Origin: Geobacteraceae bacterium
GTDB lineage: Bacteria; Desulfobacterota; Desulfuromonadia; Desulfuromonadales; BM103
Assembly (NCBI GenBank): GCA_024641085.1
Contig: JAHEDT010000002.1
Location: 124,001-188,000, forward strand
Length of the DNA: 64,000 nt
Direction of reading: 5' to 3'
In this document: positions 153-8,715 of the stretch, piece after piece
Position numbering within the stretch: position 1 is the first letter of the stretch
Layout: each line of letters opens with the position of its first letter
The notes under the pieces: model-generated
Told to the model about the DNA's origin: nothing
Seen by the model: the letters and a program-made list of their open reading frames with translations, nothing else
Database searches by the model: none
Program-made: the position numbers and the translations under genes

Positions 153-998
153 TCAGAGCAGCGACTCCGGTGAAGTGCTTTCGCTCCCCTTGGCTTTATC
201 CCGGCGCTCCAAATCCCGCACACGGCTGTTCATTTTCTGAAAAGCATCTGCCAGGCGAGCCATTTCGCCGCTCACCTCGGGAAAATCGTCATCAAGAATA
301 TCACCCTGCGAAGCTTCGGTAAAGTCGACAAGTTTTTTGATCGGCAGAAACACCTGGCTGTACAGCACGGCGCAGACAGCCCCGACCGTGAGCACCAGGA
401 CCATGCCGCTGAACATGATCATGCGGTTTTGCAGATGTCCCAGGGTTTGTTTGAGAGGCGTCTGGGACACGCCTATATCGAGGGTGCCCAGCAGGCTTTG
501 TCCGGCATCATGGAAATGGCAGGCGGCATTGGAGCATTCCGGTTCATTGTAGATCGGCGCCGTAATCGCCAGGACATCCCGGCCTTTCTGATTGGTAAAC
601 TGGCGGGCCTGGTCCATGGTTCCCAGACTGCGTTTTGGCACCGGCCCGGCATGACACTCAGTGCACCCGGCGGCGGACTTGTCGATGAACCGGTCGACTT
701 CCCGGGGGTCACGGGACAGCATGATCAGCCCCTTCTTGTTGAATATCCGCACGTGTTCAACCTGGTTCTGTTCGCCGATGCTGATGATGATATTGCTCAG
801 GGTTTCCCGATCGTCCTTGAGCATTGCGTAGCGGGTCGACTTGATCACGGTGTCGGCCAGATCGGCAGCATGCTGGATCTCGCCCTTGACCAGGTCCTCT
901 TTGACAAATGTATACAGAAGCACACAGCAGGCGATGACAAATCCGGTTACGGCACAGGCAACCGGGACGATAGCGCGACTGTTAATGCTGCTGAACAT
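153..998 (-). CDS. membrane-anchored dihaem sensor-like protein with HAMP domain, no kinase
   Basis: This 281-residue protein has a transmembrane helix at about 10-32, a periplasmic region, a second helix at about 193-215 and a HAMP-like segment (216-265), then ends without any kinase or methyl-accepting domain. The periplasmic part carries two haem c motifs: CTECH at 112-116 and a long CX4CH (CSNAACH) at 155-161. The second motif lies in a stretch (IYNEPECSNAACH) closely matched in the histidine kinase at 7009-8652, so the two share a haem-sensing module. I chose the ATG at 998 because AAGGAG lies just upstream and the hydrophobic helix follows directly. It is the last complete gene of the minus-strand respiratory operon. 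It probably senses redox state or a haem ligand and passes the signal to a partner protein (inference). Confidence 0.75.
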   Translation of the reverse strand: MFSSINSRAIVPVACAVTGFVIACCVLLYTFVKEDLVKGEIQHAADLADTVIKSTRYAMLKDDRETLSNIIISIGEQNQVEHVRIFNKKGLIMLSRDPREVDRFIDKSAAGCTECHAGPVPKRSLGTMDQARQFTNQKGRDVLAITAPIYNEPECSNAACHFHDAGQSLLGTLDIGVSQTPLKQTLGHLQNRMIMFSGMVLVLTVGAVCAVLYSQVFLPIKKLVDFTEASQGDILDDDFPEVSGEMARLADAFQKMNSRVRDLERRDKAKGSESTSPESLL

Positions 999-1060
999 GA
1001 CGAATCTCCTTGGCAGGATCACCTGACCGCGGGGCCGTCGAGCGGCCCCGCGGTCATCTT

Positions 1061-2398
1061 TCAATCGATCTTGCGATACATGGCCCCGGCCGGAGACGGC
1101 GTCGTCCGGATCGGCGCCGGCCTGACTGCTTCCGCAGCAAGAGCTTCTTCCGGCTGCGCCTTCCAGGAATAGAGGATCGGCAGACGATAGAGGATGAAGC
1201 GGTAGACCACGATGTAAATGGCAAAGATTGTTACGGCAATTATCACTTCAAAAATATGCGGAATCTCCTGGTACAGCTGCCAGTTGAAGGCGATCAGCGC
1301 TGTATTCAAACGATTCAGGGCAATCCCTAAGACGGTGATCATTGCCCCCAGACGGGCCACTTTAACCACTTGATGGCGAATTGCATAAGCGAACAGGATG
1401 ATCGGCAAAACCACTCCGACGGCCATTTCCAGCAGGAACCATGCGCCCCAACCGGTTGCCAGGTAGCCCCACTCGTTGTCATGAGCAATCCCAATCAGCT
1501 TGATGACCAGGTAGGTGATCAAGGCCAGGCTGGCACCTTTGGCCAGGCCGAGGGTGCAGCGATCCAGATTATCGCTGAAGTTGCTGTCACATCGCCAGGC
1601 CATGGTCTTCTTGACGATCGTGCTGACGACGATAACCATGCAGAGTCCGGCAGGGATTGAAGAGCAGAAGAAATGAATCCACTGGAAAGGTGAATACCAA
1701 AGGGGATGGACCTTGCCGGGGGCATAATTGAAGAGCGCCCCCAGGGCCCCCTGGTGCAATGTCGAGAGGATGATCCCGGATACGGTCAGGCCGATGGCAA
1801 TCCTCCTGATGAAGCGCTTGCCACCCAGCCAGCCGATCCACTCGAAGAAGGACACAGACACTTCCGCAACCTGCACGGACAAGTAGGTGGCCACATGCCA
1901 GGCGACCAGGAAAAGCACGGCAGCGGGACCGAAGGAGACGAACATGGGGTAAGGCAGACGCCAGGGCTGGCCGAGATCGATCAACAGGTAGACCACTGCA
2001 AAGAAATAACCGAGCAGACCATTGAGCAGGGCCAGGCGTTCGATCGGTTCGAAATCGTGGCGCCCGAAAATTTCCACCGTGGTCCCGAGCATGAATCCCG
2101 AGGCGGAAAGAGGCACCATGACAAAGAGCCCGAACCCAAGGAACAATCCCCAGGGATAATCGTTGGAGGCATGCGTCACGGCACCGAGCCCGAAGAAATA
2201 ACGGTAAGCGATCAGGGGCAGACCAACGGCAAAGATGATCCCCAGAATCCAGTTGAAAGGGTTGCGCAGCGCCTGGCCAAGGTACTGGCCCGGCGTCAAC
2301 CCGAGGAACAGCTTTTGCTTGAAAGTCCAGGCCTTGTCATTTTTCTCGTTGACGTGGGAGTCCACGGGCTTCACGCCCCATCCTATAAGACTTTTCAT
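1061..2398 (-). CDS. HybB/NrfD-family integral membrane quinone-interacting subunit
   Basis: A 445-residue polytopic protein with about ten hydrophobic segments. The stretch STLHQGALGALF is typical of the HybB branch of the NrfD/PsrC family. These proteins have no haem. They exchange electrons between (mena)quinone in the membrane and a periplasmic iron-sulfur partner. The start overlaps the stop of the upstream ferredoxin by 4 bases (ATGA), indicating translational coupling. Together with the pentahaem cytochrome and four-cluster ferredoxin upstream, it forms a three-part quinone:cytochrome c module similar in layout to Geobacter CbcSTU and to HybAB. No catalytic hydrogenase or molybdoenzyme subunit is encoded nearby. 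Confidence 0.9.
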   Translation of the reverse strand: MKSLIGWGVKPVDSHVNEKNDKAWTFKQKLFLGLTPGQYLGQALRNPFNWILGIIFAVGLPLIAYRYFFGLGAVTHASNDYPWGLFLGFGLFVMVPLSASGFMLGTTVEIFGRHDFEPIERLALLNGLLGYFFAVVYLLIDLGQPWRLPYPMFVSFGPAAVLFLVAWHVATYLSVQVAEVSVSFFEWIGWLGGKRFIRRIAIGLTVSGIILSTLHQGALGALFNYAPGKVHPLWYSPFQWIHFFCSSIPAGLCMVIVVSTIVKKTMAWRCDSNFSDNLDRCTLGLAKGASLALITYLVIKLIGIAHDNEWGYLATGWGAWFLLEMAVGVVLPIILFAYAIRHQVVKVARLGAMITVLGIALNRLNTALIAFNWQLYQEIPHIFEVIIAVTIFAIYIVVYRFILYRLPILYSWKAQPEEALAAEAVRPAPIRTTPSPAGAMYRKID

Positions 2399-3348
2399 TG
2401 CTCGCCTCCATCCTCGCCCTGTTGTTGCTCGGCGTCATGTTCGTGATCGTCGTGACCTTTTTGTTTCTTTGCCAGGAGGTGGAAGCCGGTAAACATTGCC
2501 GGCCAGATGGCCAGCACCATTGGTACGGTACCGAGGAAGTCTTTGACGTTGTTGATGATCGGTTCGTTGCCGGGGGTCGGGTCGAAGCCGACCTGGTCGA
2601 AAGCCACCGGCGCCAGATACATCCAGCTTGTTCCGCCCAACTCTTTCTCACCATAGAGGCGGGCGACATAGCGGCCAGGGTGGGTCTCAATCCGCTGGTG
2701 ACCGATCTTGATGAGATCCTTACGCTTGCCGAAGGTCAAGGCTTCCTGCGGGCAGATATCGACGCAGGCCGGCGGCAGGCCGTTTTTCAGCCTGGTGTCG
2801 TAACAGAAGATGCATTTTTTGATGACCGGATCCAAGGAGCTGGAGTAGCTGTAGGCCGGAACGTGGAACGGGCAGGCGACCATGCAGGTTCGGCAGCCGA
2901 CGCACACCTTACTATTGTAGACGACAGCTCCCTCTTCGGTCTTCGTATAGGCATTCACAAAGCAAGAGCTGAGACAAGCGGGCTCGTTGCAGTGATTGCA
3001 TTGCACCTTACGGTAGACAGGAGCACCGCCCTCTGGATTGTAACGATTGACCACCGTGTAGGCATTTTCATCGGGACGCCGCTTCTGCTTGCCGTCATGA
3101 AAGGTTTCATCAAAAACCGACATATCGTCGAAGGGACGATCAGGAGCAGGGAGCTTCTGCTCTTTGTTGCAGGCCGCCTCACAACTGCGGCAACCGACAC
3201 AACGTGTCAAATCAACCAGCACACCCATGCCATCCGGATATCCGGAAAATGTCCCCGACGCCAGGGCCTTTCTTGGCCCGGCCAAGGTTGTGGCGGCACA
3301 TCCTGCCACGCTTGCAGCAAGAAATCTCCGTCGACTGATTCCACTCAT
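2395..3348 (-). CDS. Tat-exported four-cluster ferredoxin subunit (HybA-like)
   Basis: The N-terminus has a twin-arginine signal (SRRRFL, residues 5-10). Four cysteine groups follow, the usual set for four [4Fe-4S] clusters: CVGCRSCEAAC, CNHCNEPACLSSC, CVGCRTCMVAC and CIFC...CVDIC. A C-terminal hydrophobic helix (FLGTVPMVLAIWPAMFTGF) and an acidic, His/Gln-rich tail resemble HybA, which is anchored to the periplasmic face of the membrane. It should pass electrons between the NrfD-type subunit encoded just downstream and the pentahaem cytochrome encoded just upstream. The start has a good GGAG Shine-Dalgarno. Length (317) is normal for the family. Confidence 0.9.
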   Translation of the reverse strand: MSGISRRRFLAASVAGCAATTLAGPRKALASGTFSGYPDGMGVLVDLTRCVGCRSCEAACNKEQKLPAPDRPFDDMSVFDETFHDGKQKRRPDENAYTVVNRYNPEGGAPVYRKVQCNHCNEPACLSSCFVNAYTKTEEGAVVYNSKVCVGCRTCMVACPFHVPAYSYSSSLDPVIKKCIFCYDTRLKNGLPPACVDICPQEALTFGKRKDLIKIGHQRIETHPGRYVARLYGEKELGGTSWMYLAPVAFDQVGFDPTPGNEPIINNVKDFLGTVPMVLAIWPAMFTGFHLLAKKQKGHDDHEHDAEQQQGEDGGEQ

Positions 3349-3409: not shown

Positions 3410-3925
3410 TTAGTGTCCGCCCCTGCCCGCGGCCTCTGCGTGGACGACATTTATTTGATAGAAGTCGTCCCCGGCAGTCGTCCTTGTATGGCAATCCTGA
3501 CACCCGGTCGGCCCGTCCATCTGCTCGTGACAACCAACGCAGTTCCAGTGATAGGCGGCCTTCAGACCGGGCATATCGATGTGGAACTGGTAGCGGTTCG
3601 AGGCGTCGCGATTGATATGCTTCGCAGAAAAAGGCTCGGCGACATGGCAGCCACTGCATCGGACCGTTGTTGCCTCGTCGCTACCCGCATGACAGCCCAT
3701 GCAACGCTCATTGCTTGTGCCTGTTCCCGTCGTGTGGTGATGACATGCCGAGCAATCCTCGCCCAGATCGGTATGCATAGCGTGATCGAACTCAACACCG
3801 TTGAACAACTTGGCCATTGTGTCGAGAGACACCTGCTCGGGCACATCTCCTGCCGCAGCTATCGTGCCCACAGCGATGAGTGCCAGTGCCATTATCAACG
3901 TGGTCAAGGTTTGCTTAGCGCTCAT
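3410..3925 (-). CDS. periplasmic pentahaem c-type cytochrome (class III/c7-like)
   Basis: A 171-residue protein with a cleavable signal peptide (about 1-25) and five CXXCH motifs: CSACH, CMGCH, CSGCH, CVGCH and CQDCH. Extra histidines sit between them (for example FDHAMH, SAKHINRD), giving the bis-His spacing of cytochrome c3/c7 relatives. It heads the ferredoxin-NrfD gene trio and would accept electrons from, or give them to, the ferredoxin subunit in the periplasm. The ATG has an AAGGAGAG Shine-Dalgarno. The exact family is uncertain, because few-haem class III cytochromes are divergent. Confidence 0.88.
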   Translation of the reverse strand: MSAKQTLTTLIMALALIAVGTIAAAGDVPEQVSLDTMAKLFNGVEFDHAMHTDLGEDCSACHHHTTGTGTSNERCMGCHAGSDEATTVRCSGCHVAEPFSAKHINRDASNRYQFHIDMPGLKAAYHWNCVGCHEQMDGPTGCQDCHTRTTAGDDFYQINVVHAEAAGRGGH

Positions 3926-3966: not shown

Positions 3967-4137
3967 TCATTTCTTGAGATCACCAGGCTTCGTATTCACG
4001 TACTTGTAAAACATTGGAAAAGCGATGAAGAATCCGACACATATAAGATATTCGACCGTTTTGATGTACGTGTAATAATCCACCATCGTGTAAACTGTCT
4101 GGAACTCTCCTATTTTGCCGAGTATTTCGGTAAACAT
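3967..4137 (-). CDS. 56-residue single-helix membrane protein (HmcD/TmcD-like small subunit?)
   Basis: The ATG at 4137 follows AAGGAGATAAGC. The protein has one clear transmembrane helix (VEYLICVGFFIAFPMFYKYV) and a short charged tail. It lies between a small signal-peptide membrane protein and the pentahaem cytochrome in a tightly packed operon. Small one-helix subunits (HmcD, TmcD) occur in other NrfD-containing respiratory complexes, so this may be an accessory subunit of the complex. That link is inferred from position and size, not from recognised homology. Confidence 0.65.
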   Translation of the reverse strand: MFTEILGKIGEFQTVYTMVDYYTYIKTVEYLICVGFFIAFPMFYKYVNTKPGDLKK

Positions 4138-4178
4138 GCTTATCTCCTTTGTGCGAAACAGCACCTAAGTTGACGCTT

Positions 4179-4920: not shown

Positions 4921-5145
4921 CTACTCGGATTTTACAGACGTTTTTTCCGGGCGGGTCAAAAGCCCCTTCACCAGGCCGAAGAAGAGGATCATCGCCGGCA
5001 CCAGTTGAGTCACAATGATCAGGGCAAAGAACCCGATGAAGAAATAAGCCAGAATTCCGGCACCCTCACTGTGCGTGCCTGCGGCCGCATAAGCGGCAGA
5101 TGCGCTGCCGGCTACCATCGATATCAACATCCTCATCGTTTTCAT
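4921..5145 (-). CDS. 74-residue small membrane protein, first gene of the sigma54-type operon
   Basis: The ATG at 5145 follows GGAAGGAGG. A short signal-peptide-like N-terminus (to about residue 21, SAAYAAAG) leads to one strong transmembrane segment with GILAYFFIGF and QLVPAMIL, then a charged tail. It is paralogous to the protein at 4179-4421. It is the first gene after a good -24/-12 promoter, so its product should be induced along with the cytochrome complex. Function unknown. An upstream in-frame ATG at 5220 was not used because it lies within the promoter. Confidence 0.75.
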   Translation of the reverse strand: MKTMRMLISMVAGSASAAYAAAGTHSEGAGILAYFFIGFFALIIVTQLVPAMILFFGLVKGLLTRPEKTSVKSE

Positions 5146-5203: not shown

Positions 5204-5219
5204 TGCATCAGCCGTACCA
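5204..5219 (-). promoter_or_regulatory. sigma54 (-24/-12) promoter
   Basis: Read on the minus strand, TGGTACGGCTGATGCA has the invariant GG-N10-GC and matches the TGGCACG-N4-TTGCW consensus at all but two fixed positions. It ends 59 bp before the first ATG of the small-protein/cytochrome operon. It lies immediately downstream (in transcriptional order) of a gene for an NtrC-type activator with a central AAA+ domain, the partner such promoters need. Confidence 0.7.
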
Positions 5220-5284
5220 TTCTTAGAATTTTCTTATTTATATTTTTAAGGTACTGTTTTTAAATGATTATTTTTTTAATGCGT

Positions 5285-5300
5285 GGAACAGGGATGTTCC
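5285..5300. promoter_or_regulatory. inverted repeat GGAACA-N4-TGTTCC
   Basis: Perfect 6-bp arms separated by GGGA, about 66 bp upstream of the -24 element of the sigma54-type promoter. It could be an additional regulator site. Confidence 0.4.
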
Positions 5301-5315
5301 TGGAGTAGGGGCCGA

Positions 5316-5334
5316 CGTATAAAAAAAATATACG
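5316..5334. promoter_or_regulatory. enhancer-like site 1, CGTATA-N7-TATACG
   Basis: Perfect 6-bp inverted arms with a 7-bp A-rich spacer, about 100 bp upstream of the -24 box. It shares the core GTATA-N7-TATAC with a second site at 5418-5436. Size and distance fit an upstream activating sequence for an NtrC-family dimer. Confidence 0.6.
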
Positions 5335-5417
5335 CCGCGCGCCGTGCGAAGCAGTAAATCCGGCCGTTTGATCTTCTAAGTTATTGAAAAAAGGTTTGTT
5401 TCTTCAGGAGCCTGGAA

Positions 5418-5436
5418 TGTATAGGCAAAATATACA
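5418..5436. promoter_or_regulatory. enhancer-like site 2, TGTATA-N7-TATACA
   Basis: Perfect 6-bp inverted arms with a 7-bp spacer, about 200 bp upstream of the -24 box and 102 bp (centre to centre) from the first site. It lies just beyond the stop codon of the sigma54 activator gene. The paired copies make chance less likely. Confidence 0.6.
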
Positions 5437-5492: not shown

Positions 5493-6914
<1,422 letters not shown>

Positions 6915-7008: not shown

Positions 7009-8652
7009 TCAGGCTGTCGATGCGCGATTGTCCGGCAGGGGTTCCGCTTCAATGGTGCGCATCAATGATGCAATCGGTAATTCGACCGTGAAGACCGTGC
7101 CATGATTCACGACGCTGCGCACCTTGATCTGGCCTCCGTGATTATGAATGATGCCGTAGGAAACCGACAGGCCGAGGCCCGTCCCGGCAACGCCGTTCAG
7201 CTCCTGGTTCTTGGTCGTGAAAAACGGATCGAAGATTTTGCCCAGGTTTTCTTCGGGGATTCCGACCCCGGTATCCTCGATCGTGGTAATCAACAGGTCG
7301 CGCTTGGCCTCTTTACGCATGCCGATGGTCAGACGTCCGCCCAGCGGCATGGCGTGGCAGGCATTCACCATCAGGTTGATGAAAACCTGTTCCATCTGGG
7401 TGGGGTCGACTTCGATATCGGGCAGGTTGACACCATAATGACGCACAATCTCGACATCGTTAACGCTTGCGTGGTGCTCCACCAGCGCTACGGTGCTCTC
7501 CATGATTTGCGACAGCGACTTGAGCCGTTTGTCAGGGATCGAGGTCCGGGAAAAATCGAGCAGCCGCTTGACAATATCGGCACAGCGATTCGTCTCATGG
7601 ACAATGGTCAGGGCATCTTCTCTCTGGCTTGCATCGAGTCTCTGGTCATCGGCGAACATGTTGGCGAACATCAGGATGCCGGTGAGAGGGTTGTTGATCT
7701 CATGGGCGATGCCGGCGACCAGTTGACCGAGTGAAGCCAGCTTCTCCGAACGCACCAGTTGACTGTTGACATTGGCAATCTCCTGCGTTCGCTCGAGCAC
7801 CTTGGCTTCCAGGGTTTCGGTCAGATGGCGATATCCTTCGCTGGTTTCCTTCAGCCTGGCCGTCATCTCGTTGAACGCTTCGGAGAGCTCGCCGATCTCG
7901 TCATTCGATGTCCTCTCAAGTCGGCTGTCCAGTTCCATCTTTGAAACCTTGTTCGCGTGCAGCAGTAGATCATGGACCGGACGGATGACCATGCTCTGGG
8001 TCATCCAGCTCAGGCAGATGATGACCATCAGCAACATGATCACGCCGAAGGCTGCAATGCTGTTGCGGTAGGAACCCGCCTGGACACCGATCTTCGCCAG
8101 CGACCCCTGGACCTCCAGGTAGCCGAGGGTTTTCACATGGGGCGGATGCACATGGCAGGCCGCGGTGGAACAGCTCGGCTTGTTGTAGATGGCCGTGGTG
8201 ACGCTGAGGATCTCCGCACCCTCGGCGTTATGGAAAATGCGCCGGCTGTTTTCGAAGGGGAAAAACTCGGAAGCCATGGCATCGTCCTCGCAATCCGGGC
8301 AGCTGGCTTCGATATCTTTCCGGGCTTTACCGATCTCTTCCGAGCAGGTTGAGAAGTGCACCTGGCCAACGGTGCTGAAGAGCCGGATTCGGTCTATCTT
8401 TTCATGCTGGCAAACTTCCTCCATCATCTGGTAAACCCGCTGGCGGTTGTCTTCCAGCATCTGGAAGTGAGTGGTATGCAGGATGATTTCACTGACGGTT
8501 TCAATATCATCCTTGGCATCGATCAGGAAGAGCTCCTTGAGGGTCGTGATATTGAAAAAAGCGAACAGGGAGATAGTAATCAGCAGGACAACACCGGTTC
8601 TGAATGTGAACTTGCTGATCAGACTGTGGCTGAGCGCCTTGTAGATCTTCAT
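7009..8652 (-). CDS. membrane histidine kinase with haem-binding periplasmic sensor
   Basis: A 547-residue protein: transmembrane helices at about 18-36 and 199-218, a HAMP domain, a coiled linker, and a HisKA domain with H317 in GIAHEINNPL. The HATPase domain has the N box around N430, DTGVGIP at 460-466 and GTGLGL at 490-495. The periplasmic domain has a CX4CH haem motif (CSTAACH, 161-167) in a context shared with the dihaem protein at 153-998. An earlier CPDCE (118-122) is where that protein has CTECH, so one haem site seems lost here. I placed the start at the ATG at 8652: a GTG at 8712 in the same frame lies inside an intrinsic terminator stem. Likely signals are redox state or a haem ligand. 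Confidence 0.9.
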   Translation of the reverse strand: MKIYKALSHSLISKFTFRTGVVLLITISLFAFFNITTLKELFLIDAKDDIETVSEIILHTTHFQMLEDNRQRVYQMMEEVCQHEKIDRIRLFSTVGQVHFSTCSEEIGKARKDIEASCPDCEDDAMASEFFPFENSRRIFHNAEGAEILSVTTAIYNKPSCSTAACHVHPPHVKTLGYLEVQGSLAKIGVQAGSYRNSIAAFGVIMLLMVIICLSWMTQSMVIRPVHDLLLHANKVSKMELDSRLERTSNDEIGELSEAFNEMTARLKETSEGYRHLTETLEAKVLERTQEIANVNSQLVRSEKLASLGQLVAGIAHEINNPLTGILMFANMFADDQRLDASQREDALTIVHETNRCADIVKRLLDFSRTSIPDKRLKSLSQIMESTVALVEHHASVNDVEIVRHYGVNLPDIEVDPTQMEQVFINLMVNACHAMPLGGRLTIGMRKEAKRDLLITTIEDTGVGIPEENLGKIFDPFFTTKNQELNGVAGTGLGLSVSYGIIHNHGGQIKVRSVVNHGTVFTVELPIASLMRTIEAEPLPDNRASTA

Positions 8653-8677
8653 CACGACCATTCCACAAAACGGCACG

Positions 8678-8715
8678 AAAAAACCGGGTGCCTGGGAATC
8701 AATCCGGCACACCCG
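8678..8715 (-). terminator. intrinsic terminator inside the kinase 5' leader
   Basis: On the minus strand CGGGTGTGCC pairs with GGCACCCG (one bulge) and is followed by six T residues at 8683-8678. It ends only 25 bases before the kinase start codon and lies downstream of that gene's own promoter, so it should act as an attenuator rather than end an upstream gene. Confidence 0.7.

Follow-up and report, generated by a model that had tools for sequence, protein, structure and literature searches.

Paired GTATA-N7-TATAC palindromes and interleaved IHF-like sites upstream of a sigma-54 promoter in a Geobacteraceae bacterium, with a predicted activator encoded next door

An initial annotation had marked positions 5204–5436 of the window (the whole stretch of 64,000 nucleotides analysed here) as a sigma-54-type promoter preceded by two inverted repeats. 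The question raised by this locus is whether the repeats are regulatory sites, which protein would act through them, and what they would control. As listed in Table 1, all genes concerned lie on the minus strand in the order of a kinase, an enhancer-binding protein (EBP), a gap of 347 bp, and an operon of eight genes, and the gene order, including the kinase-EBP-operon arrangement, is kept in relatives.

Table 1. Positions in the window of the regulatory elements and genes, from the kinase to the end of the operon.
Feature	Position	Strand	Remarks
Sensor histidine kinase	7009..8712	minus	periplasmic Cache/PAS-type domain, HAMP, HisKA, HATPase
NtrC-type enhancer-binding protein (EBP), predicted binder of E1 and E2	5493..6914	minus	Pfam/NCBIfam
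E2, distal predicted enhancer palindrome	5419-5435		GTATA-GGCAAAA-TATAC; centre 5427, 208 bp from -24 box (5219)
IHF-like site TTTCAATAACTTA	5377..5389	minus	WATCARN4TTR, one mismatch; between E1 and E2
E1, proximal predicted enhancer palindrome	5317-5333		GTATA-AAAAAAA-TATAC; centre 5325, 106 bp from -24 box (5219)
IHF-like site AAACAGTACCTTA	5247..5259	minus	WATCARN4TTR, one mismatch; between promoter and E1
Sigma-54 -24/-12 element TGGTACGGCTGATGCA	5219..5204	minus	direct reading; pattern GG-N10-GC
First operon gene, 74-aa small membrane protein	4921..5145	minus	conserved family
Pseudo-receiver, 137 aa	4454..4867	minus	Ser at phospho-Asp position
Second small membrane protein, 80 aa	4179..4421	minus	paralogue of 74-aa protein
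65-aa small membrane protein	3967..4164	minus	adjoins cytochrome module; synteny conserved
Multiheme c-type cytochrome, five CxxCH	3410..3925	minus	class III / c7 family matches
HmcB-like iron-sulfur protein	2395..3348	minus	NCBIfam NF045715, 388 bits, cut-off 420
HmcC/NrfD-like integral membrane protein	1061..2398	minus	NCBIfam NF045714, 367 bits, cut-off 550
Membrane heme-sensor-like protein, HAMP-like region	153..1064	minus	PF21563, 8.9e-6, just under cut-off

Promoter element and paired palindromes

The GG-N10-GC element claimed by the initial annotation was read directly on the minus strand approximately 59 bp upstream of the ATG at 5145, where the small-protein operon that it had placed downstream begins with the gene of the 74-aa protein. 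The element resembles TGGCAC-N5-TTGCW with an invariant GG-N10-GC. Its position is kept in relatives, which carry a -24/-12 element at the same place, often as TGGCAC-N6-TGCA, and the -24/-12 columns are 82% conserved across 15 aligned loci from the window's family. The genome also encodes rpoN (TIGR02395, 464 bits).

The two inverted repeats had been described as perfect, with a shared core of GTATA-N7-TATAC and different spacers, and this description is base-exact. Their distances from the -24 box and the spacing of 102 bp between the centres of E1 and E2 are likewise exact by coordinates. The arms reach 6 bp when the outer C..G and T..A pairs are included. Random scatter of the motif over the genome would have spoken against a regulatory role; in the 3,506,176 bases searched, the perfect motif occurs twice, as E1 and E2, and the control pattern does not occur. 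With up to two mismatches, 274 places were found genome-wide compared with 429 for the reversed control, so that only near-perfect copies are informative, because two-mismatch matches are common. A wider regulon in this genome was also considered, and the one-mismatch sites with a sigma-54-like element at 60–260 bp were few and weak (8 of 11 matches) and were judged to be chance.

All elements lie within the 347-bp intergenic region, which is AT-rich (41% GC), a composition in which GTATA-like sequence arises easily; the repeats could in principle be chance AT-rich palindromes. Of 20,000 shuffles that preserved the dinucleotides of the region, 3 contained one copy of the motif and none contained two, and a pair of inverted repeats of any kind with 5-bp arms, sharing arm and spacer, arose in 6 of 2000. 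The chance explanation is refuted by the conservation and positioning of the sites in relatives, and its probability is negligible.

Conservation of the sites and their link to one activator

Homologous loci were collected from 98 relatives and the named genomes, using the first operon gene as the marker. Most loci of the window's family carry both palindromes at the same distances, and in an alignment of 15 regions the half-sites are 97% conserved at E1 and at E2, while the DNA between them is 45–52% conserved. A wider set of 112 distinct promoters, anchored at the -24 box, was picked by gene family and sigma-54 element. These contain 132 near-perfect palindromes (at most one mismatch), whereas 29 permuted half-sites gave a mean of 2.5 and a maximum of 11; for perfect palindromes the count is 70 compared with 0.1. 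The counts are somewhat inflated, as a minority of the loci had been retrieved by a search for the palindrome, and relatedness makes the promoters non-independent. The distance from the palindrome start to the -24 box has its major peak at 112–118 bp and a second peak at 214–219 bp. This conservation in relatives is the decisive evidence that the palindromes are real.

Within two mismatches, the proximal site is present in 100 of the 112 promoters, the distal site in 73, both in 64, and neither in 3. The 48 promoters without both sites, and the occurrence of lone sites, some proximal and some distal, would fit an arrangement in which one of E1 and E2 acts as the enhancer and the other is a helper or a remnant. 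The equal conservation of E1 and E2 in the window's family, at 97% each, argues against this arrangement, which we regard as unlikely.

Several loci deviate from the common layout. Three orphan operons (L041, L043, and L044) consist of small membrane proteins and the pseudo-receiver with no adjoining electron-transfer genes; the DNA approximately 300 bp upstream of their small-protein genes contains a sigma-54 element and, in the distal position, a GTATA site with one mismatch. Extra perfect palindromes at L060:5431, L064:5462, and L065:5382 lie well away from the operon promoter, in the DNA that separates the operon from a divergent EBP gene, and possibly regulate the EBP gene itself. Within a duplicated operon, a second pair of palindromes is accompanied by a sigma-54 element of its own (L083:7125-7339). 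A helical periodicity of the E1-E2 spacing, suspected from clusters at 89–93 and 101–105, was rejected, as the circular statistic does not favour 10.5 bp.

The IHF-like sites were sought with the consensus WATCARN4TTR, which is the one used for Geobacter (PMC7962754). A match is found at offset 38–44 in 52 of the 112 promoters, where same-width background windows give 0–2 and one gives 7, and at offset 165–186 in 44 of the 112, where such windows give 3–10. The observed peak was matched by none of 2000 permuted patterns. The consensus thus occurs at a conserved position between enhancer and promoter, and the order of the elements is E2-IHF-E1-IHF-promoter. The genome contains genes of the IHF/HU family, with a best IHF-alpha match of 113 bits, just below the 120-bit family cut-off. 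These results suggest that an IHF-type protein may bind and bend the DNA at the IHF-like sites.

The initial annotation had also pointed to an NtrC-family activator gene next door. The product of 5493-6914 has, by Pfam and NCBIfam, the receiver, sigma-54 AAA+, and Fis-type helix-turn-helix (HTH) domains of such a protein, and the kinase gene adjoins it. The EBP forms a single orthologue group across the class, with orthologues called at E below 1e-150, clearly apart from paralogues at no more than about 51% identity. The geometry, which had been read as that expected for this family of activators, was searched in 147 relatives as a composite pattern of the palindrome followed by TGG-N9-TGCW at 83–112 bp, and the search supports that reading. 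The composite occurs 49 times in 38 genomes compared with 2 occurrences of the reversed pattern, and 60 of the 64 distinct composites immediately precede genes of the same families, with 4 elsewhere. All 38 composite-bearing genomes hold the EBP orthologue, and none of the 53 genomes without the orthologue holds the composite (Fisher p 1.6e-9, a statistic that ignores relatedness). The strict composite is absent in 56 of the 94 orthologue-bearing genomes, and those inspected closely mostly have one-mismatch sites. In the recognition helix RPNFQ...K, the residues R, N, F, Q, and K are invariant in 80 orthologues, and the RPNFQ signature is found in none of the paralogues with a readable helix. 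From the co-occurrence and the helix conservation, we infer that the EBP binds E1 and E2.

The binding is predicted, and sigma-54 activators are numerous in these genomes; the palindromes might be operators of another transcription factor, such as a repressor or global regulator, with the promoter answering to another activator. Four observations argue against this: the sites stand at enhancer distances from the sigma-54 element; they track this one EBP orthologue (38/38 against 0/53); they persist at orphan operons whose genome holds the EBP orthologue elsewhere; and the other small-protein operon in this genome, beside different activators, lacks the palindromes. Such an assignment is improbable. 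As judged from the sequence, positions 5204–5436 are almost certainly a switch, in which paired sites for a regulator encoded by the neighbouring gene stand at fixed distances from a sigma-54 promoter.

The sensor kinase and the controlled operon

The periplasmic domain of the kinase contains CX4CH and a degenerate CxxC(E). All 78 homologues contain CX4CH, and 64 of the 78 contain CxxCH; in the window's kinase the first heme motif reads CPDCE, with the histidine lost. The predicted fold of the domain is of the Cache/PAS type (pLDDT 73.5). Its best fold match is the extracellular domain of WalK, and the better Foldseek matches include the heme sensor GSU0935 (3b42). The presence of CX4CH in a Cache/PAS-type domain suggests a c-heme sensor kinase with putative heme attachment. 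An extracytoplasmic Cache/PAS-type domain with a c-heme motif is likewise found in the sCache_heme and GSU0582-GSU0935 heme sensors (PMC12889525, PMC3460858), whereas the kinase here has the invariant CX4CH, with a second motif, CxxCH, in most homologues. The sCache_heme domains fused to signalling modules act as NO sensors (PMC12889525). Because of the heme motif, the fold, and the likeness to heme sensors, the kinase likely responds to a redox or gas (heme-ligand) signal.

The 74-aa protein that opens the operon gave no Pfam or NCBIfam match. The pseudo-receiver is strongly conserved in these operons; its phospho-acceptor position is mostly Ser or Gly, with Asp in 17 of 80 homologues. The electron-transfer module shares HmcB- and HmcC-like subunits with the Hmc complex of sulfate reducers, but has a five-heme cytochrome where Hmc has the 16-heme HmcA. 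Since the scores of the two subunits also remain below their cut-offs (388/420 and 367/550 bits), the module is Hmc-like rather than Hmc. The protein at 153-1064, which ends the operon, resembles the sensor domain of the kinase; it has CxxCH and CX4CH, both conserved, lacks an output of the kinase or MCP type, and might serve the kinase as a feedback partner.

A second operon with small proteins and a pseudo-receiver in the same genome (contig C18, L131:6131-11332) has no GTATA palindromes. It has a 7-heme cytochrome and adjoins two other sigma-54 activators, which indicates that this type of operon is also used under other control.

Proposed mechanism and spread in the class

We assign a probability of roughly 0.87 to the reading that the region controls a two-component, sigma-54-dependent respiratory operon through the EBP acting on both palindromes. 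According to this mechanism, sigma-54 RNA polymerase would be poised at 5219-5204, and the periplasmic c-heme sensor kinase would phosphorylate the EBP. EBP dimers would then occupy both palindromes and form an AAA+ ring, and DNA loops, aided by IHF-type bends on the E2 side and on the promoter side of E1, would let the EBP open the promoter. The output would be the small membrane proteins, the pseudo-receiver, and a quinone/cytochrome electron-transfer module.

The kind of system is ordinary sigma-54 control. As in NtrC, ZraR, and AtoC, a protein with receiver, AAA+, and Fis-type HTH domains has a neighbouring kinase and upstream palindromes to be looped to the -24/-12 element; the present system differs from these in its operator GTATA-N7-TATAC, the site spacing of approximately 102 bp, the interleaved IHF-like sites, and the helix RPNFQ. 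The main text of the Desulfovibrio sigma-54 regulome paper does not give the GTATA/TATAC motif.

The EBP orthologue is present in 60 of 76 Geobacteraceae genomes, usually as a single copy, with 57–65% identity. In 20 neighbourhoods inspected, it usually stands with its kinase and with a sigma-54 element behind palindromes, while several loci have one-mismatch sites only and a few have none. The targets in these neighbourhoods are either an Hmc-type module or a CbcBA-like pair (a 7-heme cytochrome and a cytochrome b) with a 12-heme cytochrome. BccR and CbcBA of Geobacter sulfurreducens were reportedly described by Joshi, Chan and Bond in 2021, and the EBP group points to what is presumably this BccR (GSU0598). 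The Geobacteraceae orthologues adjoin the CbcA-CbcB-like pair, which is frequently preceded by the same two palindromes and sigma-54 element, whereas the module under control here is of the Hmc type (five-heme cytochrome, HmcB, and HmcC). Because the Cbc-type module replaces the Hmc-type one in Geobacteraceae, the EBP most resembles Geobacter BccR; this likeness rests on the neighbourhoods, as G. sulfurreducens was not recognised among the searched genomes (GSU0935 fragment at most 50% identity). CbcBA operates near -0.2 V, and it is induced when no better electron acceptor is available (PMC12307469).

These observations lead to a tentative proposal, to which we give slightly less than even odds, of a class-wide heme-sensing sigma-54 regulon in Desulfuromonadia. 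One conserved regulatory head, consisting of the c-heme sensor kinase, the BccR-like activator, and the alternating E2-IHF-E1-IHF-promoter layout, would serve exchanged, mutually unrelated quinone/cytochrome modules of the Hmc or Cbc type, with the pseudo-receiver and the kinase-less heme-HAMP protein of the operon as feedback parts. If this is true, genes for low-potential respiration could be recognised directly in genomes by the operator.

The present analysis adds to the initial annotation the adjoining kinase, the character of the operon, the IHF-like sites interleaved with the palindromes, and the occurrence across the class. Within the literature searched, the operator, the interleaved geometry, and the class-wide link to two exchangeable electron-transfer modules are new. 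They provide a concrete operator and a promoter layout for a group of activators that, judged by the Geobacteraceae neighbourhoods, probably controls respiration near the energetic limit, and they would extend this control from CbcBA-like to Hmc-like complexes. The more than 100 related promoters offer natural repeats for studying two enhancers and two bends at one sigma-54 promoter, in a layout that recurs in a class of metal- and sulfur-respiring bacteria for membrane electron-transport genes.
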